The notes under the pieces: generated by a model | What the model was told of the DNA's origin: nothing | Seen by the model: the letters and a program-made list of their open reading frames with translations, nothing else | Databases searched by the model: none | Position numbers and translations under genes: made by a program | Shown: piece after piece, positions 7,649 to 50,916 of the stretch | How the letters are laid out: the number at the start of each line of letters is the position of its first letter | How positions within the stretch are numbered: the stretch's first letter is position 1 | Assembly: GCA_018399635.1 (NCBI GenBank) | Contig: JAGYOH010000004.1 | Coordinates: forward strand, 62,001 to 126,000 | DNA: 64,000 nucleotides | Direction of reading: 5' to 3' | From: Clostridia bacterium | Lineage (GTDB): Bacteria > Bacillota > Clostridia > Peptostreptococcales > Acidaminobacteraceae

Positions 7649-8179
7649 ATGAATCAAGAAATGATAATTTCCTTGAGCAGTCTTTTCATCATCACCTCTT
7701 TTACTAACGTTTTAGCGACTCTCAAAACCATCATGATTGCCAAGAAAATCATGAATCCCGTTTACCTGATCGTCTTTGTCGACGCGGCTATTTTTGCCAG
7801 TGTCCTGACAAAGGTGGTGGGTGCCACCGGTATCTATTTCACCCTGGCCTATGCCCTGGGAAGGACCTTCGGGGTTTTCCTGGGCGGCAGGCTGGAGGAT
7901 CGGCTTGGACTCGGAATCATCGAGGTGGATCTCTTCCTCAATGAAGGTAGAAAATCCACTGATATCGCACAGCGGCTCAGAGAAGAAGGCTACACCGTCA
8001 ATCATTTCCTCACCAGAGGAAATATGGGAGAAAAAAGACAGCAAGTAGAAGTGATCATGAAAAGAAAAGAGTACAAAATTTTCCGGAAGATTCTGAGTGA
8101 GAAGGGTGTGGAAAATCCCACCCTGAAAATCAAAAGCATCAGCAAGATCGAAGGAAAAATCACCGTAAGCAGTCTGTAA
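7649..8179 (+). CDS. DUF5698/DUF2179 membrane protein (YebE/UPF0316-like)
   Basis: A 176-residue protein with three N-terminal membrane segments (about 5-75) followed by a soluble DUF2179 domain (about 90-170), the same arrangement as the uncharacterised B. subtilis YebE family. Ribosome site AGGAGGG (7637-7643) points to ATG 7649 rather than the upstream in-frame ATG at 7607, which lies inside the leader just after the terminator. Function unknown; DUF2179 is related to the small ligand or nucleotide-binding domains at the ends of other membrane proteins. The leader suggests regulated expression. Confidence 0.8.
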   Translation: MNQEMIISLSSLFIITSFTNVLATLKTIMIAKKIMNPVYLIVFVDAAIFASVLTKVVGATGIYFTLAYALGRTFGVFLGGRLEDRLGLGIIEVDLFLNEGRKSTDIAQRLREEGYTVNHFLTRGNMGEKRQQVEVIMKRKEYKIFRKILSEKGVENPTLKIKSISKIEGKITVSSL

Positions 8180-8185
8180 AAAAAA

Positions 8186-8222
8186 TCCCCTCCCGCTGAA
8201 ATGGATTCGGCTGGAGGGGACT
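8186..8222. terminator. Bidirectional terminator between DUF5698 gene and metH
   Basis: TCCCCTCC (8186-8193) pairs with GGAGGGGA (8213-8220), flanked by A8 on the left and TTTTA on the right, so it serves the plus-strand gene and, with a T8 tail, the minus-strand met operon. Confidence 0.88.
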
Positions 8223-8223
8223 T

Positions 8224-10581
8224 TTATTTTTTGAAGAACTGGTCCGCGATGGTGACGGCGCTTCTGGCATCCCTGCCGTAGTGGTCGGCGCCGATTTCCC
8301 TGGCGTACTCCGGCGTGAGGACGGCGCCGCCGACAAAGACTTCCACGTCGGGGTACTTTTTTTTGATCGCCTTGATGGTGCCTTCCATATGGAGGACGGT
8401 GGTGGTCATCAGGGCGGAGAGGCCGACGAGTTTCACATCGTGCTGTCCCACCGCTTCTAGAATCCGGTCGGCAAGGACGTCCCTGCCCAGATCGATGATG
8501 TGGTAGCCGTAGTTCTCCAGGAGGACCTTGACCAGATTTTTTCCCAGGTCGTGGACATCCCCCTGGACCGTGGCCAGGATGATGGTTCCCTTTGAAGCGA
8601 GGTTCTCGCCGCTTGAGAGAAGTTTTTTTCTGACGAGATCAAAGGCGACGCCGGCGGTTTCCGCCGCGCGGATCAGCTGGGGAAGATAAATCCGCTTGTC
8701 CTCGTACTGGCGGCCCACCTCGTCCAGGGCCGGGACCAGATGGTTTTCAACGATCCACAGGGGTTCATGGTTTTCCAGCAGGGCTTGGGTGAGGGCCTTC
8801 GTACCGGCCTGGTCGCCCTTGAGGAGCAGGTCGGGGCAGGCCGCCACTTCCGGGGATTCCGCGGTCGGAGAGGGGGGGGCTTCAAGACCGTAGTCCCGGA
8901 TGAAGGCTTTGGCGTCGGCATCGTGGTTGGCCAGGAGGTTGAAGGCCATGAGGGTGTCCCTGACGCCGGGGGCCCCGGGATCGATGATGACGGTGTCGAG
9001 ACCCGCGGTGAGGGCCATGGCCAGATAAGTCCGGTTGATCAGGGGCCGGTTGGGAAGACCGTAGGAAACGTTGCTCAGGCCCAGGGTGGTGAGGACCCGG
9101 TGCCTGGCCTTGAGGGAGGTGATGGCCTTCAGGGTCTCCATGACCTCGGCCTGCTGGGCGCTGGCGGTGAGGACCAGGGTGTCGATGAGCAGGTGGCTCT
9201 TGTCGATGCCGTGGGCTTCAGCTGTGGTGATGAGCTTGACAGCCACCGCCAGGCGGTCCTCGGATTTTTTGGGAATCCCCTCTTCGTCAAAGGTGAGGGC
9301 GATCACATAGGCCCCGTATTTTTTCACCAGGGGAAAAATTTCGGCCATGGCTTCAGCCTTGCCGTTGACGGAATTGATGACGGGGACCCCGTTGTAGTGA
9401 CGCAGGGCGGCCTCGATGACCTCCGGGCTGGTGGTGTCGAACTGGAGGGGGACGTCGATGAGGCCGTTGAAAAGCTCGATGATTTCAAGCATAGCCTTTT
9501 TCTCATCCACTCCGGGGAGGGAGGTGTTGATGTCGAGGACCGCCGCCCCCTGTGCCACCTGCTCGAAGGCGATCTTCAGGGCCGGGGTGAAATCCCCCGC
9601 CTTGAAGGGTTCCTTGAGTTGCCGGTTTCCTGAGGGATTGATCCGCTCGCCGATGAGGGTGATGCCTTCATCGAGGTTGACCCGCCTTTGGGAGGAGGAA
9701 AGGTAGCGGGGCCTTGTGGTGATTTTTCGGGGCCGGTAGTTTCCTTTGAGCTCAGCGAGTTTTTCAATGGTTTTCGGGCCGGTGCCGCAGCATCCCCCGA
9801 TGATCTGGACCCCCTTTTCGACGAAGCCGGCATAGATGTCCTTGAAGGCCTCCGGGGTGACGGAGTAGTGGGTTTTGCCGAAGCTGACGCTGGGCAGACC
9901 GGCATTGGCCTGGACCATCACCGGCAGCCTGGAAAAGTCGAGAATCCGCTCCACGATGGGAATCATTTCCTGTGGTCCCAGGGAGCAGTTGACGCCCAGG
10001 GCGTCCACTCCCAGGGCTTCCAGGGCCAGGACCATGTTTTCAGGATCGGTGCCGGTGAGACTGAAACCGTCGGCCTCGAAGGTCATGGTGGCGAAGACGG
10101 GACAGTCGGCGTTCTCCTTGGCGGCGAGGACCGCCGCCCGCATTTCCCCCAGATCCGACATGGTCTCGATGAGAATCAGATCGACCCCCTGCCTGGCACC
10201 GATGAGGACCTGCTCCTTGAAGTAGCCGTAGGCCTCCTCGAAATCCATTTCGCCGATGGGCCGCATGACCCGTCCGATGGGACCCAGGTCCAGGGCGATC
10301 TTCGTCCCGGTGTCCCCGGCGGCCCTTCGGGCATTGTCGATGGCGGCCAGGACGATGGTTTCAAGAGAGTATCGTGATTTCGAGAGTTTGTAGGCATTGG
10401 CGCCGAAGGTGTGGGTGGTGATGACCCCGGCCCCGTGGCGGATATAGGTCCTGTGGATATCGATGATCACCTGGGGATGGTCGATATTGAGCTCCTCCGG
10501 GATGGTGGTGTCGATATAGCCCTTTTCCTGGAGCATGGTGCCCATGGCACCGTCAAAAATCAATAGTCCTGTTTCGAGCAA
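8224..10581 (-). CDS. metH: Cobalamin-dependent methionine synthase (no activation domain)
   Basis: This 785-residue enzyme methylates homocysteine with methyl-tetrahydrofolate through cobalamin. Domains in order: homocysteine S-methyltransferase (about 1-285, zinc ligands in GVNCSLG and GGCCGTGPK), pterin-binding (about 300-560, LIGERINPSGNRQL), cobalamin cap and cobalamin-binding Rossmann domain (about 585-785, with GDVHDLGKN supplying the B12 histidine). The C-terminal activation domain of E. coli MetH is absent and is encoded separately by the preceding gene. Start is TTG 10581, ten bases after AAAGGAG. Last gene of the SAM-riboswitch operon. Confidence 0.96.
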   Translation of the reverse strand: MLETGLLIFDGAMGTMLQEKGYIDTTIPEELNIDHPQVIIDIHRTYIRHGAGVITTHTFGANAYKLSKSRYSLETIVLAAIDNARRAAGDTGTKIALDLGPIGRVMRPIGEMDFEEAYGYFKEQVLIGARQGVDLILIETMSDLGEMRAAVLAAKENADCPVFATMTFEADGFSLTGTDPENMVLALEALGVDALGVNCSLGPQEMIPIVERILDFSRLPVMVQANAGLPSVSFGKTHYSVTPEAFKDIYAGFVEKGVQIIGGCCGTGPKTIEKLAELKGNYRPRKITTRPRYLSSSQRRVNLDEGITLIGERINPSGNRQLKEPFKAGDFTPALKIAFEQVAQGAAVLDINTSLPGVDEKKAMLEIIELFNGLIDVPLQFDTTSPEVIEAALRHYNGVPVINSVNGKAEAMAEIFPLVKKYGAYVIALTFDEEGIPKKSEDRLAVAVKLITTAEAHGIDKSHLLIDTLVLTASAQQAEVMETLKAITSLKARHRVLTTLGLSNVSYGLPNRPLINRTYLAMALTAGLDTVIIDPGAPGVRDTLMAFNLLANHDADAKAFIRDYGLEAPPSPTAESPEVAACPDLLLKGDQAGTKALTQALLENHEPLWIVENHLVPALDEVGRQYEDKRIYLPQLIRAAETAGVAFDLVRKKLLSSGENLASKGTIILATVQGDVHDLGKNLVKVLLENYGYHIIDLGRDVLADRILEAVGQHDVKLVGLSALMTTTVLHMEGTIKAIKKKYPDVEVFVGGAVLTPEYAREIGADHYGRDARSAVTIADQFFKK

Positions 10582-10600
10582 GGGGGTTCATCTCCTTTGA

Positions 10601-11260
10601 TTATTTTCTGAAGTGGCAGCTCTCATAGTAGGGACACGCCTGGCAGGAGTCCTCCCCGCAGCGGGTGGGGGCCCTGGCTTCTAAAGGACGGCTGGCTATG
10701 CCGAGTACTGCGACGATGGATTTCAGCGGGACCAGAAGAGAGCTTTCATTGAGGCTCAGTCCGATTTTCTTGTAGGCGTCGAGGACCTGGAGAATATTGA
10801 TCTGGTCCGACAGGGGCATGTCTCCGTAGCCCGGACTGAAGCGGAAGGGAAAATGGGCGGTGGCGGGATAGGCCTGCTTGATGATCGCTTCGCAATCATC
10901 GCAGACCTCTTCAATCATCACCGAGGCCGCGGCGTCGTGGATCAGCCCCTCGTAGGGGGACAGACGGCTCCTGAGCTGGATCAGCCGGTCCGCCGCCTGC
11001 CCCAGGGTACAGGCCATGAGAACCACCTCCTCGCAGCCGGCAAGATGGGCCGTGATGCTCCCGCCTTTGAGGGAGAGAAGGGGATGGGAAAGGTCCACGA
11101 TTTTTTCCCGGACGGCGGCCACCTTGAAGGTTTCATGGACGCACCGGCCCTTGAGCAGGGTCTTCATTTCCTGGTAGGTTTTTTCAATGGTGTGGCGGGT
11201 GGCCGGATCGGCACCCTCCGGGAAACCCAGGTAGGCTTCGATGGTGCTGATGGGATCCAT
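10601..11260 (-). CDS. Stand-alone methionine synthase activation-domain protein
   Basis: A 219-residue protein related to the AdoMet-binding reactivation domain of MetH. The motif RFSPGYGDMPLSDQ matches the family's RxSPGYG signature. It is expected to bring AdoMet and a reductant to cob(II)alamin that has become inactive. The C-terminus carries four clustered cysteines (CGEDSCQACPYYESC) not found in the E. coli domain; they could bind metal or an Fe-S cluster. It lies 19 bases before metH and 11 after metF, completing the split methionine synthase. Confidence 0.9.
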   Translation of the reverse strand: MDPISTIEAYLGFPEGADPATRHTIEKTYQEMKTLLKGRCVHETFKVAAVREKIVDLSHPLLSLKGGSITAHLAGCEEVVLMACTLGQAADRLIQLRSRLSPYEGLIHDAAASVMIEEVCDDCEAIIKQAYPATAHFPFRFSPGYGDMPLSDQINILQVLDAYKKIGLSLNESSLLVPLKSIVAVLGIASRPLEARAPTRCGEDSCQACPYYESCHFRK

Positions 11261-11271
11261 ATAACCCTCCT

Positions 11272-12156
11272 TTAGCCTTGGGTCAAGGTCTTTCTGATGG
11301 TGGAGATCGGGTCCATGATGGCCAGGGTGTTCCTGGGCTGGTTCATGGTATAGAGGTGGATGCCGTCGATGCCGGAGGAGAGCAGATCGATGATCTGGTT
11401 GACGGCGTAGGCGATGCCGGCTTCTCTCAGGGCCTCGGGCTTGTCCTGGTAGCGGTCGAGGATTCTCTGGAATTTGGCGGGCAGGCGGGTGCCTGTCAGG
11501 GCCTGGACATGGTGGACCTGGCGCAGGTTGACCACGGGGAAGATTCCGGCGATCACCGGCACGTCGATATCCAGAAGTTCGAGGTTTTCCTTGAAGGCAT
11601 AGAATTTCTGATTGTCGAAGAAGAGCTGGGTGATGAGAAAGTCGAGGCCGTGGTCCACCTTGGTCTTCAAGTACTTGATGTCCGAGACCCGGCTTTGGGA
11701 TTCCACATGACCCTCGGGATAGGCCGCGCCGCCGATACTGAAGTGGTCGGTCTTCCTCAGTTCCTGGATCAGGTCGGCGGTATGGGGAAAGGCGGGCTTG
11801 AAGTGTTGGTTTTTGAGGGACTCGGGGATGTCCCCCCTGAGGGCCAGGATATTCTCGACGCCCTCATCCTTCAGGGCTTGAATGGTCTTTGTAAGAGTTT
11901 CCCGGGAGGCGGCGATACAGGTCAGATGGGCGATGGATTCAATCTTGTAGTGGTTCTTGATCCGGGAGGCGATTTCAATGGTGTGGTTCTGGGTCGATCC
12001 CCCCGCTCCGTAGGTGACGCTGATGAAATCCGGTGCCAGGTCCTTCAGTGCTTCAATGGTATCATAGATGGTTTCGATGGGGTATTCCTTTTTTGGGGGG
12101 AAGACCTCGAAGGAAATGGTGGGTTTTTTTGCTTCAAACAGGGTTTTGAGTTTCAT
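11272..12156 (-). CDS. metF: Methylenetetrahydrofolate reductase
   Basis: A 294-residue flavoprotein that makes methyl-tetrahydrofolate, the methyl donor for MetH. The FAD/substrate motif FISVTYGAGGSTQNHT is present near residue 45, and length is typical of the catalytic domain alone. Its start overlaps the end of the COG2122 gene by 23 bases, so the two are translationally coupled. It links the homocysteine-forming genes upstream to the methylation genes downstream. Confidence 0.96.
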   Translation of the reverse strand: MKLKTLFEAKKPTISFEVFPPKKEYPIETIYDTIEALKDLAPDFISVTYGAGGSTQNHTIEIASRIKNHYKIESIAHLTCIAASRETLTKTIQALKDEGVENILALRGDIPESLKNQHFKPAFPHTADLIQELRKTDHFSIGGAAYPEGHVESQSRVSDIKYLKTKVDHGLDFLITQLFFDNQKFYAFKENLELLDIDVPVIAGIFPVVNLRQVHHVQALTGTRLPAKFQRILDRYQDKPEALREAGIAYAVNQIIDLLSSGIDGIHLYTMNQPRNTLAIMDPISTIRKTLTQG

Positions 12157-12883
12157 GGGATTCTTCCTTTCGATGATAAAGATGGATTTCCCCCCAGAGG
12201 CCGATCCGGTCCTCGATGAGGATCAGGGTCCCCAGGATTTCGGGAATTTTTTTTGCGGCGGCCATGGCGGCGGGAATGTCCCGGGGGGACTTGACCATGT
12301 TGCCCAGGGCGGTGGCGGCGGCATCGGCCAGGAGGGGATCCCGGCTCAGCACCACCACGGCATCGGCTTTCCCGAAGCTCAGGGAATGACCCAGGGTTCC
12401 GGAGGAGGTGCAGATGCCCAGGGGGGTGATCTGGGGGGGGATGGTGATGACGAGGTCTCTGGGAAAGGCGCTGGAGGCGGTATGGACCCTGATGTTTCGG
12501 GGTACCGAAGACTTGAGATAGAGGTCTCCTCCGTTTTCAATGATGAGTTCGTCATTGAGGGGGCTCAGGGCTTCCCCCAGATAGTGGGCCACGGCGCCGG
12601 CGACACTGGCCATGGGGCCCACTCCGAGGGCCCCGCCGGCCTGCTTCATGTGACTGATCAGTGGATCTTCGGCTTCAAGGGGTTCCAGGGGTGTCAGACT
12701 GTGAAGAAAAGAAGGTTCATTTTCGATGTGGTCCGTCATCACCCGGCGAAGCTGCTTCAATCGGGCGGCGGCATCCCCCAGGGACCCGCTGTAGTAGATC
12801 ATCAGATCGGATTCTTCGATTTTGAGAGGCTGACTTTTCAGGTCGCCGGTAACCTCCCTGCGGTAGCTTCTTTCCTGATACAC
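12134..12883 (-). CDS. COG2122/UPF0280 protein of the direct homocysteine pathway
   Basis: A 249-residue protein of the UPF0280 family, a distant relative of the ApbE fold. The glycine- and serine-rich stretches (GVGPMASVAGAVAHYLG and GICTSSGTLGHSL) are typical. In methanogens and Desulfovibrio, COG2122 members are linked genetically to DUF39 and NIL-ferredoxin proteins in making homocysteine from aspartate semialdehyde and sulfide; its exact reaction is not settled. Here it lies immediately after those two genes. The start is GTG 12883, with a weak ribosome site (GGCGGTGAT). Confidence 0.85.
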   Translation of the reverse strand: MYQERSYRREVTGDLKSQPLKIEESDLMIYYSGSLGDAAARLKQLRRVMTDHIENEPSFLHSLTPLEPLEAEDPLISHMKQAGGALGVGPMASVAGAVAHYLGEALSPLNDELIIENGGDLYLKSSVPRNIRVHTASSAFPRDLVITIPPQITPLGICTSSGTLGHSLSFGKADAVVVLSRDPLLADAAATALGNMVKSPRDIPAAMAAAKKIPEILGTLILIEDRIGLWGEIHLYHRKEESHETQNPV

Positions 12884-12896
12884 GGGATCACCGCCT

Positions 12897-13307
12897 TTAA
12901 AGGAGGGAGGCCTTTGAAATGGCCTTTGAGGGACAGACCGGCAGGCAGAGGTCGCATCCGGTACACTTGTCCGAATTGTAGGTCAGTTCCCAGTCCGGAC
13001 CGGTGACGGCCAGGGCATCCGGGAAGCAGACGGCGGTGCACAGGCCGCAGTCGGTGCAGCGGCTCCGGTCGACGGCGATGATGGCCTCCACCATTTCCAG
13101 GTGGATGCCGGGCTCATTGAGGTCGGTGAGGGTTTTTTTGATCATGGCCTCATCCCCCTCGATTTCGTAGAGGATATGGCCGATATTGTTGTAACCGATA
13201 TCCGCCTTGAGAATGTTGATGACGAGATTGTACTCCTTGATGAGGCGGTAGGTGAGGGGCTTGGCGGTGTATTCCGAATCGAAGGTGAGCATGATTTTGG
13301 TCTTCAC
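12897..13307 (-). CDS. NIL domain plus 2[4Fe-4S] ferredoxin
   Basis: A 136-residue protein with an N-terminal NIL domain (about 1-75) and two CxxCxxCxxxC clusters (CTDCGLCTAVC and CTGCDLCLPVC), so it should hold two 4Fe-4S centres. The homologous NIL-ferredoxin partner of DUF39 in Methanosarcina (MA1822) is required for homocysteine synthesis, probably by supplying electrons to the sulfur-transfer step. Its ATG overlaps the stop of the DUF39 gene (ATGA), showing tight coupling. Confidence 0.92.
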   Translation of the reverse strand: MKTKIMLTFDSEYTAKPLTYRLIKEYNLVINILKADIGYNNIGHILYEIEGDEAMIKKTLTDLNEPGIHLEMVEAIIAVDRSRCTDCGLCTAVCFPDALAVTGPDWELTYNSDKCTGCDLCLPVCPSKAISKASLL

Positions 13308-14473
13308 GCTTCATCATCTCCTTTCACCATGGTTTTGACCCTGCTGTCGAGGGAAAAATGAGCGACGGGCTCGGTGAGGAAGAATTCTCCATTCCGGATC
13401 TGGTCCTTGAGGACCTGGGCGATTTTTCTCGCCTTCCGGAGGCTGCTGAGGGGGGCGGTCTTCACTTTTTTCCCATCGATGGTCACCCCGCCGCTTCTGA
13501 GCTCGGCGTAGGATACCGTGGCCACCACCGGCTTGGACCGTTTCGGGACGGAATAGTCGATGATGTTGGTTTTGATTTCATCGTCACTGATGCCGCAAAA
13601 GGCCAGCACCTCGGGACTGAGGACGGGGATGGGGATGCCGATGCCGACGTTCATGCTGACCCCGTAGCCCTTGAAGACCACCGGTGAAATGTATTCGGTA
13701 TCCATTTCCCTGAGCTGGCCGATCACCGAGAGGGTGGCGGCGGGAGTCTTTGGAATGCCGTTTTCATAGCGGGGCACATCGGTCTTGAACTGGGTCCCTT
13801 GAAAGGCGATATAGCCCTGGGCCCCGCCCAGGAAAATCCGGGTGCCGATGCCGATGGTTTTCAGGTAGGGATCGTTGAAGAGGGGGCTGAGCTGTCCCGT
13901 AGTGGCGTAGTTGACATGGGTCCCCTTGGGCAGGAGGGTCCCCATGTAGGTGTGGATGGGTCTGTCAGAAAGATTGATGGCGGCGGCGTAGTTCTGGTAG
14001 GAATTTCTGGGATTGAACATGAAGGCTTCGTTGAGATCCTCTAGAGCCACTTCCCGGGTCACCTGGGTCCTGGGGTAGCAGTCGGTGCCCTTGCCGGAAC
14101 CCTTGAGGGTGACCTTTTTGCCTTCGATGAGGTCGCAGATGACGTGGGCGCCGCCATAGTCCTCGGGACGGGTTCTGGAGACGTCCGTGGCGCCGATATA
14201 GGTATCCACGGCGGCCAGTCCCCCCGAGGCGGGCACGTCGTTGAGGGTGATCTCCTCCAGGCGGATGGGGGGGTCGGAGTGGCCGAAATTCAGGAAGGCT
14301 CCCGTGGAGCACATGGGGCCGAAGGTGGCGGTGGTCACCACGTCCACCTTTTCGAAGGCGGCTTCGGGACCCTCCTCCCGCAGGAGCTGGATGACTTCTT
14401 CCGCGGTCATCACCACGACATTCCCCTGTTTGATTTTTTCGTTGATGGCTTCGACGGTTCTTGATCTTGTCAT
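13304..14473 (-). CDS. DUF39 homocysteine-biosynthesis protein (aspartate semialdehyde sulfurtransferase)
   Basis: This 389-residue protein belongs to COG1900/DUF39. Its methanogen homologue (MA1821) converts aspartate semialdehyde to homocysteine with sulfur carried on a cysteine persulfide. Candidate sulfur-carrying cysteines are Cys55 (GPMCSTGAFLNFGHSDPP) and Cys132 (GKGTDCYPRTQ); Cys113 is also present. Unlike MA1821 it has no C-terminal CBS domains. It is the first gene of the operon, 26 bases behind the SAM-I terminator, with ribosome site AAGGAGG. The pathway bypasses the usual O-acetyl- or O-succinylhomoserine route. Confidence 0.92.
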   Translation of the reverse strand: MTRSRTVEAINEKIKQGNVVVMTAEEVIQLLREEGPEAAFEKVDVVTTATFGPMCSTGAFLNFGHSDPPIRLEEITLNDVPASGGLAAVDTYIGATDVSRTRPEDYGGAHVICDLIEGKKVTLKGSGKGTDCYPRTQVTREVALEDLNEAFMFNPRNSYQNYAAAINLSDRPIHTYMGTLLPKGTHVNYATTGQLSPLFNDPYLKTIGIGTRIFLGGAQGYIAFQGTQFKTDVPRYENGIPKTPAATLSVIGQLREMDTEYISPVVFKGYGVSMNVGIGIPIPVLSPEVLAFCGISDDEIKTNIIDYSVPKRSKPVVATVSYAELRSGGVTIDGKKVKTAPLSSLRKARKIAQVLKDQIRNGEFFLTEPVAHFSLDSRVKTMVKGDDEA

Positions 14474-14498
14474 GATTTGACCTCCTTGAAAAAATAAA

Positions 14499-14635
14499 AA
14501 ACCCTACCCGAAGGTAGAGTTAATTTTAAAATTTGCTCATCTTTCGGTTTACACCGCTGGATTTAGCACCACGCCGGCAGGCAGGTTGCTGGATGTCATC
14601 GGGCCAGTCCCTCAATCGCTCTTGATAAGTCGTGC
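14499..14635 (-). promoter_or_regulatory. SAM-I (S-box) riboswitch with terminator
   Basis: Read on the minus strand, the aptamer (about 14629 to 14530) shows the S-box core: CTTATCAAGAGCG, GAGGGACTGGCCCGATGA, CAGCAACC, GGTGCTAAATCCAGC and a closing GATGAG. The expression platform is a terminator at 14499-14520 (ACTCTACC, TTCG loop region, GGTAGGGT, then T6). High SAM would end transcription before the DUF39 gene, so the whole homocysteine-to-methionine operon is under methionine-pool control. Confidence 0.96.
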
Positions 14636-14658
14636 TATTCAATTGGTATTTGAAAATT

Positions 14659-14686
14659 ATTATAACAGGCTCAAAGGGAATGTCAA
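14659..14686 (-). promoter_or_regulatory. Promoter of the met operon
   Basis: On the minus strand TTGACA (14686-14681), 16 bases and TATAAT (14664-14659), about 30 bases before the SAM-I aptamer. It begins only 20 bases after the ilvB stop, with no terminator in between, so some ilv transcripts could run into the riboswitch. Confidence 0.85.
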
Positions 14687-14705
14687 CATAAACAATCCGA
14701 AAACA

Positions 14706-16361
14706 TCATTTGACCAGGTACTCTGCGATGGATTTTCCCGGAGGAACGAAGGGGTAGACGTCCTCGTCGGGATCGATGCGGACCTCGATGAAGTGGGCGC
14801 CCCGGTCCCTTCGGCTGGCTTCGAGGGCCGCCTTCAGGTCCGGCAGGCTGTCCACCCTGACCCCCTTGACGCCGTAGGCCTCGGCGAGCTTGAGGTAGTC
14901 CAGACCGCTCTGGTTGTTGGTTTCGGAATACCGCCGGTTGTTGAAGAGTTTCTGCCATTGACGGACCATGCCCAGGGATTCGTTGTTCATCATCAGGATG
15001 GTGAGGTTGAGGTCGTAGCCTGCCACCGTCAGCAGCTCGTTGGCGTTCATTCTGAAGGAACCGTCCCCTGAAATCAGGACCACCGGTGTGTCGGGGTTGC
15101 CGATACAGGCTCCGATGGCGGCTCCGAGTCCGTAGCCCATGGTGCCGAGGCCGCCGGAGGTCAGCATCCCCCTGGGGTGGCTCACCCACCAGTGCTGGGC
15201 GGCCCACATCTGGTGCTGGCCTGTATCCGTCACGAGAATCGTCTCGTCGGGATAGGCTCTGCGGGCGGTCTTGATGATATTCTCCGGGCAGTAGAGGGCC
15301 TGGTCCGCCGGGGCGTATTTTTTGCTCTGGATCCAGTCGAGCCACTGGGTGTGCTTCTTCACTTCAAGGCGGTCCACCAGGTAGGCAAGGTTGCTGCTCA
15401 GGTCTCCGTCCAGGTAGAGATCGCAGTGGATGTTTTTGGAGAATTCCGTTTCATCGATGTCGAGCTGGACGATATAGGCATCCCGGGCAAAGGTTTCCGA
15501 AAGGCCGATGGCCCGGTCGCTGAAGCGGGCGCCGATGACCAGAAGCAGGTCGGTGTGGCTGACGGCTTCATTCACTTCGGGATGGCCGTGCATGCCGGAA
15601 AGGCCCAGGGACAGGGCATGGTTCATGGGGAAGGTGCCGAGGCCCATGAGGGTGTTCACCACGGGAATATTCCCCTTGATGGCCAGGGCCTTGAGGAGGG
15701 TTGAGGTGTTGGAGCGTTTGACGCCGCCACCGGCATAAATCAGAGGCCTTTCGGCCTGGGACAGGCGAAGGAGAATCTCCCCGAGTTTTTCGGTGTCCAG
15801 GGCTCTGGCGGGGTCGCCCGGGGAAGAGGCTGCCGGGTCGGCGTCCTCCTGGTCCGTGGTGGCCAGAAGGATGTCCTTGGGCAGGTCCACCAGAACCGGC
15901 CCGGGTCTTCCACTTCTGGCCACGTCGATGGCCTCCTGGACCACCGCCGCCATCTTGTCCACATCATCCACCAGATAGGTTTTTTTGGTAATGGGCTCCG
16001 AAATCGAAGTGATATCGATTTCCTGGAAGGAGTCCTTGCCCAGCATGGCCATGGGAACCTGACCGCTGAAAACCACGATGGGAACGGAGTCCATGTAGGC
16101 GGTGGCCAGTCCCGTGATGGTGTTGGTGGCTCCGGGGCCGCTGGTGACGAAACAGACCCCCACCTGGCCCGTGGCACGGGCGAAGCCGTCGGTGGCGTGG
16201 ACGGCTCCCTGCTCATGGGCGAAGCGGTAGTGGGTGATGCGGCCGGTGTAATCCAGGAGGGCATCATAAACCGGCATGATGGCGCCTCCAGGGTAACCGA
16301 AGATTTTGGTGACCTGGTTTTTCAAAAGGGTATCTAAAATGATTTCTGATCCGGTACGCAC
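14706..16361 (-). CDS. ilvB: Acetolactate synthase, large subunit
   Basis: This 551-residue thiamine-diphosphate enzyme condenses pyruvate with pyruvate or 2-ketobutyrate, the first common step to valine, leucine and isoleucine. The catalytic Glu is in AHEQGAVHATDGFARATG, and the ThDP/Mg motif starts at GDGSFRMNANEL and ends in the usual NN. Start is GTG 16361, seven bases after AGGAGG. It is the last gene of the operon, after ilvC; the regulatory subunit is encoded first, the reverse of the common ilvB-ilvN-ilvC order. Confidence 0.96.
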   Translation of the reverse strand: MRTGSEIILDTLLKNQVTKIFGYPGGAIMPVYDALLDYTGRITHYRFAHEQGAVHATDGFARATGQVGVCFVTSGPGATNTITGLATAYMDSVPIVVFSGQVPMAMLGKDSFQEIDITSISEPITKKTYLVDDVDKMAAVVQEAIDVARSGRPGPVLVDLPKDILLATTDQEDADPAASSPGDPARALDTEKLGEILLRLSQAERPLIYAGGGVKRSNTSTLLKALAIKGNIPVVNTLMGLGTFPMNHALSLGLSGMHGHPEVNEAVSHTDLLLVIGARFSDRAIGLSETFARDAYIVQLDIDETEFSKNIHCDLYLDGDLSSNLAYLVDRLEVKKHTQWLDWIQSKKYAPADQALYCPENIIKTARRAYPDETILVTDTGQHQMWAAQHWWVSHPRGMLTSGGLGTMGYGLGAAIGACIGNPDTPVVLISGDGSFRMNANELLTVAGYDLNLTILMMNNESLGMVRQWQKLFNNRRYSETNNQSGLDYLKLAEAYGVKGVRVDSLPDLKAALEASRRDRGAHFIEVRIDPDEDVYPFVPPGKSIAEYLVK

Positions 16362-18225: not shown

Positions 18226-19743
18226 GTGGACAACCATATTTACTTTTTTGACACGACCTTGAGAGACGGAGAACAATCTCCGGGCAACACCATGAATTTG
18301 AAGGAAAAGTTATTGTTGGCAAAACAACTCGAGAAGCTCGGTGTGGACATCATCGAAGCCGGCTTTCCGGCGGCTTCGAAGGGCGACTTTGAAGCCGTGC
18401 AGGCCATTGCCGGCGTGGTTCAGAACGCCGTGGTGGCAGGGCTTTCAAGAGCCTTGGAATCCGATATCCAGAGGACCTACGATGCCGTCAAGGGGGCCAG
18501 ACATCCCAGAATCCATACCTTCATCGCCACCTCCCCCCTCCATATGGCGTACAAATTGAAAATGACTCCTGAGGAGGTTTACCAGAAGGCGGTGGCTACG
18601 GTCGGATTCGCCAAATCCCTCACGGAGGATGTGGAATTTTCCGCCGAGGACGCCTCCAGAACCGACCTGCCCTTCCTGGCCAGGGTCATTGAAGGCGTCA
18701 TCGAAGCCGGGGCCACGGTGGTCAACATTCCCGATACGGTGGGCTACACCACCCCGGAGGAATATGCCCGGATCATCAACTATCTGAAAGAAAACGTCAG
18801 CAATATCGACCAGGCCGTCATCAGCGTCCATTGCCACAATGATCTGGGGCTTGCGGTTTCCAACAGCCTCTCCGCCTTCAAGGCCGGCGCCCGCCAGGTG
18901 GAATGCACGGTCAATGGCATCGGCGAACGAGCCGGCAATGCGGCCCTGGAGGAAATCGTGATGGCCCTTGAAACCCGAAGGGACTTCTACGGTTTCGAGA
19001 CCGGCATCAACACCCGGGAGATCGCCAAGACCTCCCAGCTGCTGACCTCCATCACCGGTGTGCCGGTCCAGCCCAACAAGGCCATCGTCGGAGCCAACGC
19101 CTTCGCCCACGAATCAGGGATCCATCAACACGGGGTCCTCGCCCATAAATCCACCTACGAGATCATGTCGCCGGAGGCCATCGGGATCAAGTCCAACAAG
19201 CTGGTCCTCGGCAAGCATTCCGGACGTCACAGCTTTGTGAACCGCCTCGAAGAGCTGGGCTACAGCCTGGAACCCGACAAACTCAAGGATGCCTTCGAGA
19301 AATTCAAGGAGCTGGCGGACAAGAAAAAGAACATCTACGACCGCGATCTCATCGCCATCGCCATGGAGGAATCGGTGAAGATTCCACAGATTTACGCCCT
19401 GAAATCCTTTACCATCAACACGGGAACAGGGATGACCTCCACCGCCACCATTTCCCTGGAATCCAAGGGAGACACCATCGAAGAAGTGGCCATCGGAGAC
19501 GGTCCGGTGGATGCCGCCTACAACGCCATCAAGAAAATCGTGGGCGTCAACGGAGTCCTGAGAGAATACAAGCTTGACGCCGTCACCGAGGGCATGGATG
19601 CCCAGGGCGAGGCCATGGTCACCGTGGTCTTTGAAGACAAGAAATACAAGGGACACGGTCTGAGTACCGATGTCCTGGAATCCAGTATCCTGGCCTATAT
19701 TGACGCCATGAACCGGATTCTGGACCGAACCAGAGAGAATTGA
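18226..19743 (+). CDS. leuA: 2-isopropylmalate synthase
   Basis: A 505-residue enzyme condensing acetyl-CoA with 2-ketoisovalerate, the committed step to leucine. The TIM-barrel motif [17 protein letters not shown] starts near residue 7; the metal-binding [14 protein letters not shown] lies near 205; the C-terminal third is the LeuA regulatory domain that binds leucine. Start is GTG 18226 with AAGGAGG (18212-18218). First gene of the leuA-cimA-leuC-leuD-leuB-ilvD operon. Confidence 0.96.
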
Positions 19744-19798
19744 TGCCAGAATCGATTCAGGATGGGCGCCGAAAAAAAGAGAGTAGGAGCTTGTTCTT

Positions 19799-21358
19799 AT
19801 GAAAATAAAGATATTCGACTCCACCCTGAGGGATGGAGCCCAGGGAGAGGGGATTTCCTTCTCCGTCACCGATAAACTCAAGATTGTCGAAGTGCTCGAC
19901 AATCTCGGCATCCACTACATCGAATCCGGCAATCCGGGTTCCAACGAAAAGGACCGGCTTTTTTTCGAGGAAGTCCGAAAGAAGCCTCTCAAGAATGCCA
20001 GGCTCGTGGCCTTCGGGAGCACGAGACGCAAGGGAATCGAGGTATCCCGGGATGACAACGTCCTGGCCCTCCTCGAGGCCGGAACCGGGGTGGTCTGCAT
20101 CTTCGGGAAATCCTGGGACCTTCATGTGGAGAAGATTCTCAGGACGACCCTTGAGGAAAACCTCGAAATGATCGGGGATACCGTGGCTTTTTTCAAGGAC
20201 AAGGGCAAGGAAGTGGTCTTCGATGCGGAGCACTTTTTCGACGGCTACCAGGCCAATCCGGCCTATGCCCTGAGGACCCTGGCGGCGGCTTCCGGGGCCG
20301 GGGCCGACGTCCTGGTCCTCTGTGACACCAACGGCGGCACCTATCCCACGGACCTTCAGAGAATCGTCGCTGAGGTAAAAAAAACCACCGCCACGGAACT
20401 GGGAATCCACGTCCATGACGACATGGGCCTTGCCGTGGCCAATTCCCTCCTTGCCGTCGACGAGGGAGTGACCCACGTCCAGGGGACCTTCACCGGCTTC
20501 GGGGAACGCTGCGGCAATGCCAACCTCTCCGCCGTCATCCCCGGTCTCCAGTTGAAACGGGGGCATGAAGTCCTTGAGGAAGACCAGCTGAAAAACCTGA
20601 CCCACGGGGCCAGGGAAATCAACAACATCGCCAACATCCCCTTGGCCAACCAGCTGCCCTATGTGGGAAGGTCCGCCTTCTCCCACAAGGGGGGGATGCA
20701 CATCGACGGGGTGGCCAAGGTGGCCCGCAGCTTTGAGCACATCCCCCCGGAGGAGGTGGGGAACAGGCGCCGCTACCTGATGAGTGAAATGTCAGGAAAA
20801 ACCTCCATTTTTTCCATCATCCAGCGGGTGGATCCCTCCCTTGAGAGAAATTCGGAAACCTCCGGGAAGATCCTGGAAAAATTGAAGGCCCTTGAGAAGG
20901 AGGGCTATCAGTTTGAAGGGGCGGAAAGCTCCTTTGAGCTGGTGATCAGAAAGTTCCTCGGACTTCACGATCCCGCCTTTGAGATCGAATACTTCAAGAC
21001 CATCGATGAAAGCACCACCGCGGCCCTCAGTGCCTCCAGCATCATCAAGATCAGGGTCAAGGGCCAGGAGGAAATCACCGCCGCCCAGGGCAACGGTCCC
21101 GTCAACGCCATGGACCTGGCCCTGAGAAAGGCCCTGCTCAAATTCTACCCCTGTCTGGACCGGATGAAGCTCAAGGACTACAAGGTGAGAGTCCTTGACG
21201 GCGACAACACCACGGCCGCAAAGGTGCGGGTGCTGATCGAGTCCACCAACGGGGAGGAGACCTGGGGCACCGTCGGGGTTTCCACCAATATCATGGAGGC
21301 CAGCCTCAAGGCCCTGGTGGATTCCATAGAATACAATTTGCTGAAGGAGATAGGATAA
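19799..21358 (+). CDS. cimA: (R)-citramalate synthase
   Basis: This 519-residue relative of LeuA condenses acetyl-CoA with pyruvate to make citramalate, so isoleucine can be made without threonine deaminase. [20 protein letters not shown] at the N-terminus and [14 protein letters not shown] are typical of the CimA group rather than LeuA, as is the longer length. Its product is processed by the LeuCDB enzymes encoded just downstream. The stop overlaps the leuC start (TAATG). Confidence 0.93.
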
Positions 21359-49024: not shown

Positions 49025-49084
49025 ATGAAAAAATCATATGGACCAGATGAAGGCAGTGGAAAAGCAGATTTTGACCGTTGTCGG

Positions 49085-49205
49085 ATGGGACTCTGGAGAG
49101 ACTCTTTAAGTAGAGCACCGAAGGGGAAAGCGTTCAAGTTTTCATGAACGTCAAACTCTCAGGTAAAAGGACAGAGAAAAGGGTTGGGTTCTGACAACCT
49201 TTTTT
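49085..49205 (+). promoter_or_regulatory. Single-aptamer glycine riboswitch with terminator
   Basis: The aptamer (about 49088-49178) contains CTCTGGAGAG, GCACCGAAGGGGAAAGC and AACTCTCAGGTAAAAGGAC, the conserved glycine-binding core. A terminator follows at 49178-49205 (AAAGGGTTG pairing with CAACCTTTT, one G-T, then T6). Only one full aptamer is present; the 50 bases upstream may form the accessory stem of singlet types. It lies ahead of the ACT and UPF0210 genes instead of glycine-cleavage genes. Confidence 0.93.
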
Positions 49206-49271: not shown

Positions 49272-49565
49272 ATGAAAGCGATCGTCAATGTAGTGGGCAG
49301 GGACCGGCTGGGTATCATCGCGGAGGTGGCGGCGGTGCTCTACCGCCGAAGGGTCAATATCCTGGACTTGTCCCAGACCATCATGGAGGACTATTTCACC
49401 ATGGTGATGCTGGTGGACCTGGGTCAGATGGAGGATTCCTTCAAGAGCCTGAAGGGGGATCTCAAGGCCTGCGGTGAGACCATCGGCATGTCCATCAGGA
49501 TTCAGGAGGAGTCGATTTTCAAGGCCATGCACCAGGTGGATTTCGGTGGTGTGATCCATGACTGA
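49272..49565 (+). CDS. ACT-domain protein, UPF0237/GcvR-like
   Basis: A 97-residue protein made of a single ACT domain ([20 protein letters not shown]), of the UPF0237 group related to GcvR. ACT domains usually bind amino acids; glycine is the likely candidate given the riboswitch upstream. Ribosome site GGGAGGTC places the start at ATG 49272, not the in-frame codon at 49248. It overlaps the UPF0210 gene by eight bases, a pairing conserved in many Firmicutes. Confidence 0.9.
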
Positions 49566-50916
49566 GATGAAATCCATTCTTGAAACCATACGGATGATCG
49601 AGAAGGAAAAGCTGGACATCCGGACCGTGACCATGGGAATCTCCCTCCTGGACTGCGCCCATGAGGACGGGGAGAGGGCCCGGGAGAGGATTTATCACAA
49701 GATCACCAGCCTGGCCGGGGACCTGGTGGCGGTGGCTGAGAAAATCGAGGAGGAGCTCGGTATTCCCATCATCAACAAAAGGATTGCCGTCACCCCCATC
49801 AGCCTGGTGGCGGGGGCGTCGAAGGACGAGGATTACACGGCCTTCGCCAGAACTCTGGATGAGGCGGCCAAAGCCGTAGGAGTCAATTTCATCGGGGGAT
49901 TCAGCGCCCTGGTGGAGAAGGGGATTTCGAGGAGCGACCGCATCCTCATGGACAGCCTCCCCAGGGCTCTGGCCGAAACGGAAAGGGTCTGCGCCTCCAT
50001 CAACGTGGGCACGACAAAGTCGGGCATCAATATGGATGCGGTGAAAATCATGGGACAAAGAATCCTGGACGTGGCTGAAATGACCAGGGAGGAGGAGAGT
50101 ATCGGTTGTGCGAAACTGGTGGTCTTCGCCAATTCAGTGGGGGACAATCCCTTCATGGCTGGGGCCTACCACGGCATTGCTGAAGGCGATGCCGTCATCA
50201 ATGTGGGGGTCAGCGGGCCCGGGGTCATCAAGGCCGCCCTTGAGAGGGTCAGGGGTGAGCCCATGGACGTGGTGGCCAGGGTCATCAAGGAAACGGCTTT
50301 CAAAATCACCCGGGCGGGCCAGCTGGTAGGAGAAGAGGTGAGTCGGCGGCTGGGGATTCCCTTCGGCATCATGGACCTGTCTCTGGCCCCCACGCCGGAG
50401 GTGGGGGACAGTGTGGCCAGGATTCTGGAGGAGATCGGTCTGGAGGTCTGCGGGACCCATGGCACCACCGCGGCCCTGGCCCTCCTGAATGATGCGGTGA
50501 AAAAAGGAGGCATCATGGCCTCCAACCACGTGGGGGGTCTGAGCGGGGCCTTTATCCCCGTCAGTGAGGACGAGGGGATGATCGCGGCGGTGCAAAAGGG
50601 AGCCTTGACCTTTGACAAGCTTGAAGCCATGACCTGCGTCTGCTCCGTGGGGCTTGACATGATCGCCATACCGGGGGATACCCGGGCCGCCACCATTGCC
50701 GCCATGATCGCCGACGAGGCGGCTATCGGCGTCATCAACAACAAGACCACGGCGGTCCGCATCATCCCGGCCCAGGGGAAAAGCACCGGGGACATGGTGC
50801 ATTTCGGCGGTCTTCTCGGCTACGCCCCCGTCATGAAGGTCAATGATTTTTCCTCGGAGGACTTCATCAATCGCGGCGGCCGGATACCGGCCCCGGTCCA
50901 CAGCTTCAAGAACTGA
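49558..50916 (+). CDS. UPF0210/DUF711 protein of unknown reaction
   Basis: This 452-residue protein belongs to the UPF0210 family, whose structures resemble glycyl-radical enzymes of the pyruvate formate-lyase fold but lack a known reaction. Glycine-rich stretches such as [13 protein letters not shown] and [17 protein letters not shown] are conserved. It is translationally coupled to the ACT gene and shares its glycine riboswitch, so a role in glycine or one-carbon metabolism is an inference from context. Confidence 0.88.

Follow-up and report, generated by a model that had tools for sequence, protein, structure and literature searches.

The stretch of DNA analysed here raises the question of whether one operon controlled by S-adenosylmethionine (SAM) equips a clostridial cell with a complete route to methionine, starting from a homocysteine-forming enzyme of the kind known from methanogens and Desulfovibrio. 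The window (i.e., the whole stretch that was analysed) comprises 64,000 nt of the assembly Clostridia bacterium GCA_018399635.1, contig JAGYOH010000004.1, and coordinates refer to window positions. A compact minus-strand unit running from 14686 to 8178 contains a promoter, a SAM-I riboswitch, a terminator and six genes, which encode, in this order, a DUF39/HcyBio protein, a NIL-domain ferredoxin, a COG2122-type protein, MetF, a standalone MetH activation protein (Act) and a MetH without activation domain. Very probably, this unit represents a single SAM-repressed operon that provides for de novo methionine synthesis from aspartate semialdehyde onwards. An earlier note, made from the sequence alone, had placed six genes and a SAM riboswitch here, and matches to RF00162 (77 bits), Pfam, NCBIfam, PDB and Foldseek bore out these placements. 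The features of the unit, in the direction of transcription, are as follows:

14659..14686, minus strand: σ70-type promoter, TTGACA-16-TATAAT with TG before the −10 element (12/12 match)
14534..14631, minus strand: SAM-I (S-box) riboswitch aptamer (RF00162, 77 bits, E = 2.4e-16, full model)
14500..14521, minus strand: intrinsic terminator (expression platform), lying after the aptamer and ahead of the DUF39 gene (stem of 9 pairs, UUCG loop, T run, −10.6 kcal/mol)
13304..14473, minus strand: DUF39/HcyBio protein (COG1900a-like) without CBS domain, with Cys55 and Cys132 (PF01837, 484.6 bits over positions 1–349)
12897..13307, minus strand: NIL-domain ferredoxin with two 4Fe-4S motifs (PF09383 NIL, 51.5 bits; Fer4 in two stretches)
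12134..12883, minus strand: COG2122/UPF0280-type protein (PRK04334.1-3, 242.9 bits; PDB 2o34, E = 1.8e-36)
11272..12156, minus strand: MetF, 5,10-methylenetetrahydrofolate reductase (PF02219, 284 bits; TIGR00676, 318.8 bits, over its cut-off)
10601..11260, minus strand: Act, standalone MetH activation (AdoMet-binding) protein, TM0269-like, 219 aa (PF02965, E = 0.0011; 1j6r, E = 2e-11)
10616..10660, minus strand: C-terminal cysteine motif of Act, C201 (variable) and C206-x2-C209-x5-C215 (invariant), from the Act alignment
8224..10581, minus strand: MetH with homocysteine-methyltransferase, folate and B12 domains (PF02574, PF00809, PF02607, PF02310)
8178..8225, minus strand: probable operon terminator, CCCCTCC/GGAGGGG core stem at 8187–8219 followed by a T run (folded, −26.0 kcal/mol)

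According to the open reading frame coordinates, the DUF39 and NIL-ferredoxin genes overlap, as do the COG2122-type and metF genes, and the remaining neighbours lie at most ~20 nt apart. The upstream ilvB gene stops at 14706, ahead of the promoter; when the sequence upstream of the unit was base-shuffled 1000 times, no shuffle reached a 12/12 match and 36 reached 10. Relatives carry comparable promoters before their riboswitches (12/12 in L009 and L135; 11/12 in L010, L011, L139, and L013; L and G numbers denote our loci and genomes, respectively). The aptamer, which was aligned with 19 other SAM riboswitches, passes the RF00162 gathering score of 44.4. At the far end of the unit, the terminator hairpin overlaps the MetH stop; its loop exceeded the limit of the general terminator scan.

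PF01837 was detected in 133 of 398 phylum-sample genomes and in 51 of 391 class-sample genomes, with the window's genome counted in both; within its order, G720 and G459 were the sample's only further carriers, against 17 listed order members without a match. Gene neighbourhoods were compared in 100 DUF39 loci, comprising all 50 non-self class-sample matches and one hand-picked locus from each of 50 phylum-sample families; 18 named loci are additional, and some of these repeat fetched ones (e.g., L011 and L125), so that counts use the 100. Several locus contigs end early. A same-strand downstream ferredoxin partner was counted in 94/100 loci (the short NIL-less ferredoxins of L121 and L128 escaped this count), COG2122 was found in 97/100, and both together with DUF39 in 92/100. 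SAM riboswitches were scored with a covariance model built from 20 of them (the window's, one upstream of metK, and 18 taken at other DUF39 loci, where a few lie before metH instead of DUF39) and were counted if they ended ≤800 nt upstream of DUF39; by this rule, a riboswitch leads into DUF39 in 40/100 loci, or in 47/100 if the order riboswitch–metH–DUF39 is included. These counts support, in silico, the earlier note's claim that the trio and the riboswitch work as one methionine pathway. Rfam, run on 12 class loci, gave presence and absence identical to the covariance model. A terminator-like hairpin was present in 37 of 47 riboswitch–DUF39 gaps (a separate 47, from 118 loci including repeated genomes). 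The comparison across clostridia that the earlier note had suggested showed that the trio recurs, but that a riboswitch leads into DUF39 in only 9 of the 50 class loci; the other 38 of the 47 riboswitch-led loci are among the 50 from elsewhere in the phylum. Listings of open-access searches showed no paper reporting SAM-I control of the trio, but on this basis the arrangement cannot be called unreported.

All six genes and a riboswitch occur together in 6/100 loci (L098, L123, L125, L135, L139, and L154), and the colinear arrangement of the window is found in L009, L010, L135, and L139. Rearranged relatives bear on a different reading of the window, namely that the riboswitch governs only DUF39 and perhaps the next neighbours and that later genes use other promoters: in L098, L123, and L125, the genes come in a shuffled order or those of the MetH group lie on the other strand. 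However, a separate SAM riboswitch accompanies the opposite-strand MetH–MetF–Act group of L098 and L123, so both halves are independently tied to SAM; in the window itself, the genes overlap or nearly touch, and the sole minus-strand promoter-like site found in 7900–14800 is that before the riboswitch. We thus regard such a partial control as unlikely and a single SAM-repressed operon as the better description. Two further observations were made among these loci. Tandem SAM-I riboswitches precede DUF39 in L010 (8358–8651) and L135 (2635–2874). The closest named locus, L009 (81% identity in DUF39), bears the title delta proteobacterium ML8_F1, a label that may be wrong; all 17 remaining named loci are titled as clostridial or Bacillota.

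For the first gene, the earlier note had proposed a homocysteine-forming enzyme of the archaeal and Desulfovibrio type, and by sequence this assignment held, as the PF01837 match (485 bits) passes the cut-off of 26.2 and the cysteine that is essential in the archaeal enzyme is kept in 102/102 aligned proteins. The alignment comprises the 100 sampled loci, L009, and L010, with MA1821 not among them; Cys55 is kept in all 102 proteins and Cys132 in 101, while the remaining two cysteines of the window protein are kept in 15 and 3, respectively. Cys55 and Cys132 have the same spacing as Cys54 and Cys131 of the Methanosarcina acetivorans enzyme L-ASST, an equivalence by number and spacing with MA1821 unaligned. 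In the parts of PMC12068725 cited here and below, Cys54 and Cys131 of L-ASST are described as nearly universal, with C54A non-functional and C131A active but diminished. A solved DUF39 structure was sought by sequence search and none was found (best E = 0.36).

The only NCBIfam match of the DUF39 protein at E ≤ 0.001 was TIGR03287, methanogenesis marker 16 (MMP16), which raises the possibility of a different thiol product, resembling coenzyme M or coenzyme B, given that the related MMP16 synthesises coenzyme M; according to the cited parts of PMC12068725, L-ASST may also serve M. acetivorans as a backup for making coenzyme M. However, the TIGR03287 score was 141 bits against a cut-off of 364, and the window protein was therefore not classed as MMP16; its conserved cysteines are at the L-ASST positions (55/132 vs. 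54/131) and not at those of MMP16, which sit elsewhere (PMC12068725); and DUF39 stands in one string with a SAM riboswitch, metF, and metH. Synthesis of another thiol is thus very improbable, and homocysteine formation is the function that we assign to the DUF39 protein on these sequence grounds.

The earlier note had set against its own proposal a full O-acylhomoserine pathway under stronger SAM control. The genome-wide search (2.36 Mb, 95.6% complete, a caveat that all absences in this genome carry) found no HTS (MetA), and for MetX nothing beyond a 51-position fragment of 26.5 bits; the cut-off of the MetX model went unreached in every control genome too, and the raw score is the informative figure. 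Two SAM riboswitches were found in the genome among the 150 of 232 first-look candidates that were scored: that of the operon and one before metK. To this extent, the refuting outcome named in the earlier note was looked for and not found. Eleven DUF39 genomes (the window's and ten that were hand-chosen) were searched for PF01053 enzymes and HTS, the MetX search being of the window's genome. In four of them (G459, G418, G711, and G043; contamination 6% in G711), HTS is missing, as is any full-length PF01053 enzyme; these four carry DUF39, COG2122, MetH, and a ferredoxin, which lacks NIL in G711.

The same searches bear on whether homocysteine is mainly formed by another route, with a PF01053 enzyme using imported precursors or with SAM recycling, and the trio serving as accessory sulfur trafficking. 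The window's genome does have one full-length PF01053 enzyme, and among the relatives carrying DUF39, three (G520, G479, and G768) have both HTS and PF01053 enzymes, and three others (G720, G298, and G311), like the window's genome, have PF01053 enzymes without HTS. However, HTS or MetX to make acylhomoserine was not found in the window's genome, its PF01053 enzyme is nearest to methionine gamma-lyases (all best models, albeit below their equivalog cut-offs), and four of the relatives (G459, G418, G711, and G043) carry DUF39 without any full-length PF01053 enzyme. This route is thus quite improbable as the main source, and we favor homocysteine synthesis by the trio. As a separate observation, the methionine gamma-lyase-like gene overlaps an amidohydrolase gene and a gene that appears by eye to encode a permease (L001:626–3989, minus strand, C7 of the window's genome); the best NCBIfam model for the amidohydrolase is N-ethylammeline chlorohydrolase, with 5′-deoxyadenosine and MTA/SAH deaminase lower and all below cut-off, and this group is possibly a salvage cluster.

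The proposed pathway draws its catalytic steps from work in Desulfovibrio (PMC5764234, likewise cited for part of its contents) and Methanosarcina (PMC12068725). At high SAM levels, binding of SAM to the riboswitch would favor the terminator, and at low levels transcription would proceed into all six genes. Through Cys55, the DUF39 protein would convert aspartate semialdehyde and sulfide into homocysteine without a homoserine intermediate, with the NIL-ferredoxin giving electrons and the COG2122-type protein assisting DUF39. MetF would provide 5-methyltetrahydrofolate, MetH would methylate homocysteine to methionine, and Act would reductively remethylate oxidised cobalamin using SAM.

Several results weigh against this proposal. 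By the rule given above, 53 of the 100 loci lack a SAM riboswitch, including 41 of the 50 in the window's class, and the riboswitch–DUF39 link is therefore common but not general; among the 53, L097, L099, L109, and L150 have a riboswitch elsewhere in the stretch (that of L109 being excluded by an overlong open reading frame call), and a few contigs stop just upstream of DUF39. Four loci (L140, L145, L159, and L185) have no ferredoxin beside DUF39. The 242.9 bits of the COG2122-type protein fall under the NCBIfam cut-off of 271 for PRK04334.1-3, which, like PDB 2o34, we take to be a COG2122 member. The antiterminator that could be drawn is weak (−1.3 to −3.4 vs. −10.6 kcal/mol for the terminator) and the leader fold is no more stable than shuffled sequences (z = −0.45); the switch mechanism is the weakest computed link of the whole interpretation. 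The completeness of 95.6% limits the absence of rival routes. Finally, deletion of L-ASST in M. acetivorans gave no methionine phenotype, which the authors explain in the cited part of PMC12068725.

In archaeal L-ASST, the CBS domain has been proposed to sense SAM and the NIL domain methionine (PMC12068725, in part). The earlier note had singled out the lack of CBS domains in the DUF39 protein, which is true of the window protein but not special to it. The 100 DUF39 proteins span 341–519 aa, with the figure of 341 shortened by a contig end, and none of them, except two ferredoxin fusions, is long enough for a CBS pair, which takes up ~120 residues; a Pfam scan of the six longest identified two as ferredoxin fusions and four as DUF39 alone. 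Lack of CBS was accordingly rejected as diagnostic of the window protein, CBS-less being the usual form among the 100 loci. Given this proposed sensing of SAM and methionine by CBS and NIL in archaea, and the absence of CBS here, it can fairly be inferred that SAM sensing moved from protein to RNA; feedback by SAM would then sit on the riboswitch, replacing the CBS sensor proposed in the Methanosarcina enzyme, and the NIL domain may still sense methionine. Apparent natural fusions were observed as DUF39–NIL-ferredoxin (L122:2954–4513, minus strand) and as DUF39–ferredoxin without NIL (L183:7659–9089, minus strand).

The ferredoxin was kept and NIL was absent in 9/100 loci, hand corrections included, and in seven of the 92 loci with a complete trio. 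NIL-less DUF39 ferredoxins of 63–80 aa were observed in L121, L125, L128, L136, L147, L171, L177, and L182. These loci suggest that NIL is dispensable for catalysis and agree with a regulatory role of this domain. A coupling of NIL loss to the riboswitch was also considered and rejected: a riboswitch, counted upstream at whatever distance within the stretch, was present in 7/9 NIL-less and 37/84 NIL loci, a difference that was not significant (Fisher p = 0.08). For this comparison, L157 was reassigned by hand from ferredoxin only to NIL-ferredoxin, as its match starts at the cut, and L149, L162, and L187 (ferredoxin beyond the distance cut) and the four loci truly without ferredoxin were omitted.

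The last two genes of the unit were described in the earlier note as a split MetH, and a separate Act and a MetH without PF02965 (none found by Pfam scan) are indeed present, but they represent an already known type. In Thermotoga maritima, as in the window, a MetH without activation domain (TM0268) adjoins a standalone activation protein (TM0269), and a 2007 paper, by its title as cited in PMC7857596, reports that TM0269 reactivates TM0268. By Pfam, Act is weak (PF02965, E = 0.0011), and it is clearer by sequence to PDB 1j6r, which is TM0269 (E = 2e-11); in this match, Act residues 4–188, which precede the cysteine tail, are aligned to the chain up to its residue 206 of 214. With an AlphaFold model of Act (mean pLDDT 80.6, from a four-sequence alignment), the top Foldseek match was the same TM0269 activation domain (E = 3e-8, TM 0.69/0.76), with the MetH activation regions of Thermus, E. 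coli, and human next in rank. On these matches, the MetH and Act pair is taken as a split methionine synthase of the TM0268/TM0269 type.

The earlier note had also reported an extra four-cysteine cluster in Act. C-terminal cysteines are present, but three are invariant and the fourth is variable, and they are not tied to DUF39: C206, C209, and C215 are kept in 14/14 aligned Act proteins from DUF39 loci and C201 varies. Act-like matches were found in 173/291 genomes. All of the 30 top-scoring Act proteins in the class sample carry the motif (30/30), but this set is biased: the window's Act and two more of the 14 aligned proteins are among its members. Of Act proteins hand-picked from further down the class listing, 7/20 carry it. 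In many of the 30, an extra cysteine follows the motif rather than precedes it. A cysteine tail as a trait of the DUF39 pathway was rejected, as tailed Act proteins occur in G359, G573, and G667, all without a PF01837 match; together with the 7/20 among lower-ranked proteins, this suggests that the tail marks a subset of standalone Act proteins independent of DUF39. A structural reading of the tail was likewise rejected because of low model confidence (10-residue means of 65, 60, and 46 from residue 191). Among the 20 hand-picked loci, MetF lies beside 6/7 tailed and 3/13 tailless Act proteins (Fisher p = 0.017), an association that is a lead only, as the loci were hand-picked.

Conceivably, though we consider it doubtful, Act is a variant MetH reactivase with its own metal site, in which C-x2-C-x4/5-C and a fourth cysteine, before or after this motif, would bind an Fe-S cluster that replaces flavodoxin as the source of low-potential electrons for cob(II)alamin; Act would then correspond in function to RACo/RamA, activators that bear Fe-S. 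The RACo C-terminal domain PF14574 was not found in the window's genome and was absent in 7 of 14 genomes searched. Of these 14, eight are known to have a tailed Act, six of them without PF14574 (the window's, G720, G459, G418, G711, and G311) and two with it (G298 and G043), and the tail is therefore no simple RACo substitute. The listings of open-access searches contained no report of a cysteine-tailed Act.

Elsewhere in the window, a glycine riboswitch (RF00504, 62 bits, 49083–49184, plus strand), followed by a hairpin with a T run, precedes a small gene with an ACT-like domain recognised by eye (49272–49565) and a DUF711 gene (49558–50916, 640 bits); this uncharacterised pair is therefore linked to glycine. 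Two adjoining HMGL-like/LeuA-dimer genes of the 2-isopropylmalate synthase type (18226–21358, plus strand) lie in a leucine/isoleucine cluster, and the second may encode a citramalate synthase-like enzyme.

The pathway is already known from Desulfovibrio and methanogens, and the parts of the window's operon are of known kinds. Like M. acetivorans L-ASST, the window has a DUF39/COG1900a subunit, with the cysteine pair at corresponding positions, and a NIL-ferredoxin; unlike it, the window's DUF39 protein has no CBS domain, is preceded by a SAM-I riboswitch, and is encoded in one gene string with metF and metH. In Desulfovibrio, genetics indicate that all three proteins are required and that homoserine is not an intermediate, and D. 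vulgaris Miyazaki F has the same three proteins, no well-characterised parallel route, and a MetH without activation domain (PMC5764234, in part). Its genes are scattered, however, to judge from the distant locus numbers DvMF_1464, 0262, and 0044, whereas those of the window form one string, and a DUF4445 (RamA-like) protein was inferred as its reactivator (PMC5764234, in part), while the window has a TM0269-type Act. The riboswitch resembles known RF00162 members in its full-model match and downstream terminator and differs in its target, DUF39-type homocysteine synthesis. The fresh points are thus two: SAM-I control recurs for the trio, and Act has a cysteine tail, which possibly makes it an Fe-S reactivase.

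Annotation of homocysteine synthesis through DUF39 is poor; as of November 2017, the route was absent from MetaCyc and KEGG (PMC5764234, in part). SAM-I riboswitches before DUF39 in many families represent evidence, independent of genetics, that this is a methionine gene, and they would aid annotation of the DUF39 route in anaerobes that automated tools may label auxotrophs. The cysteine-tailed Act provides a testable idea for B12 re-reduction in genomes in which a RACo-type activator is not found, and the riboswitches suggest that SAM feedback can be placed on RNA, in contrast to the presumed protein sensor of the archaeal enzyme.

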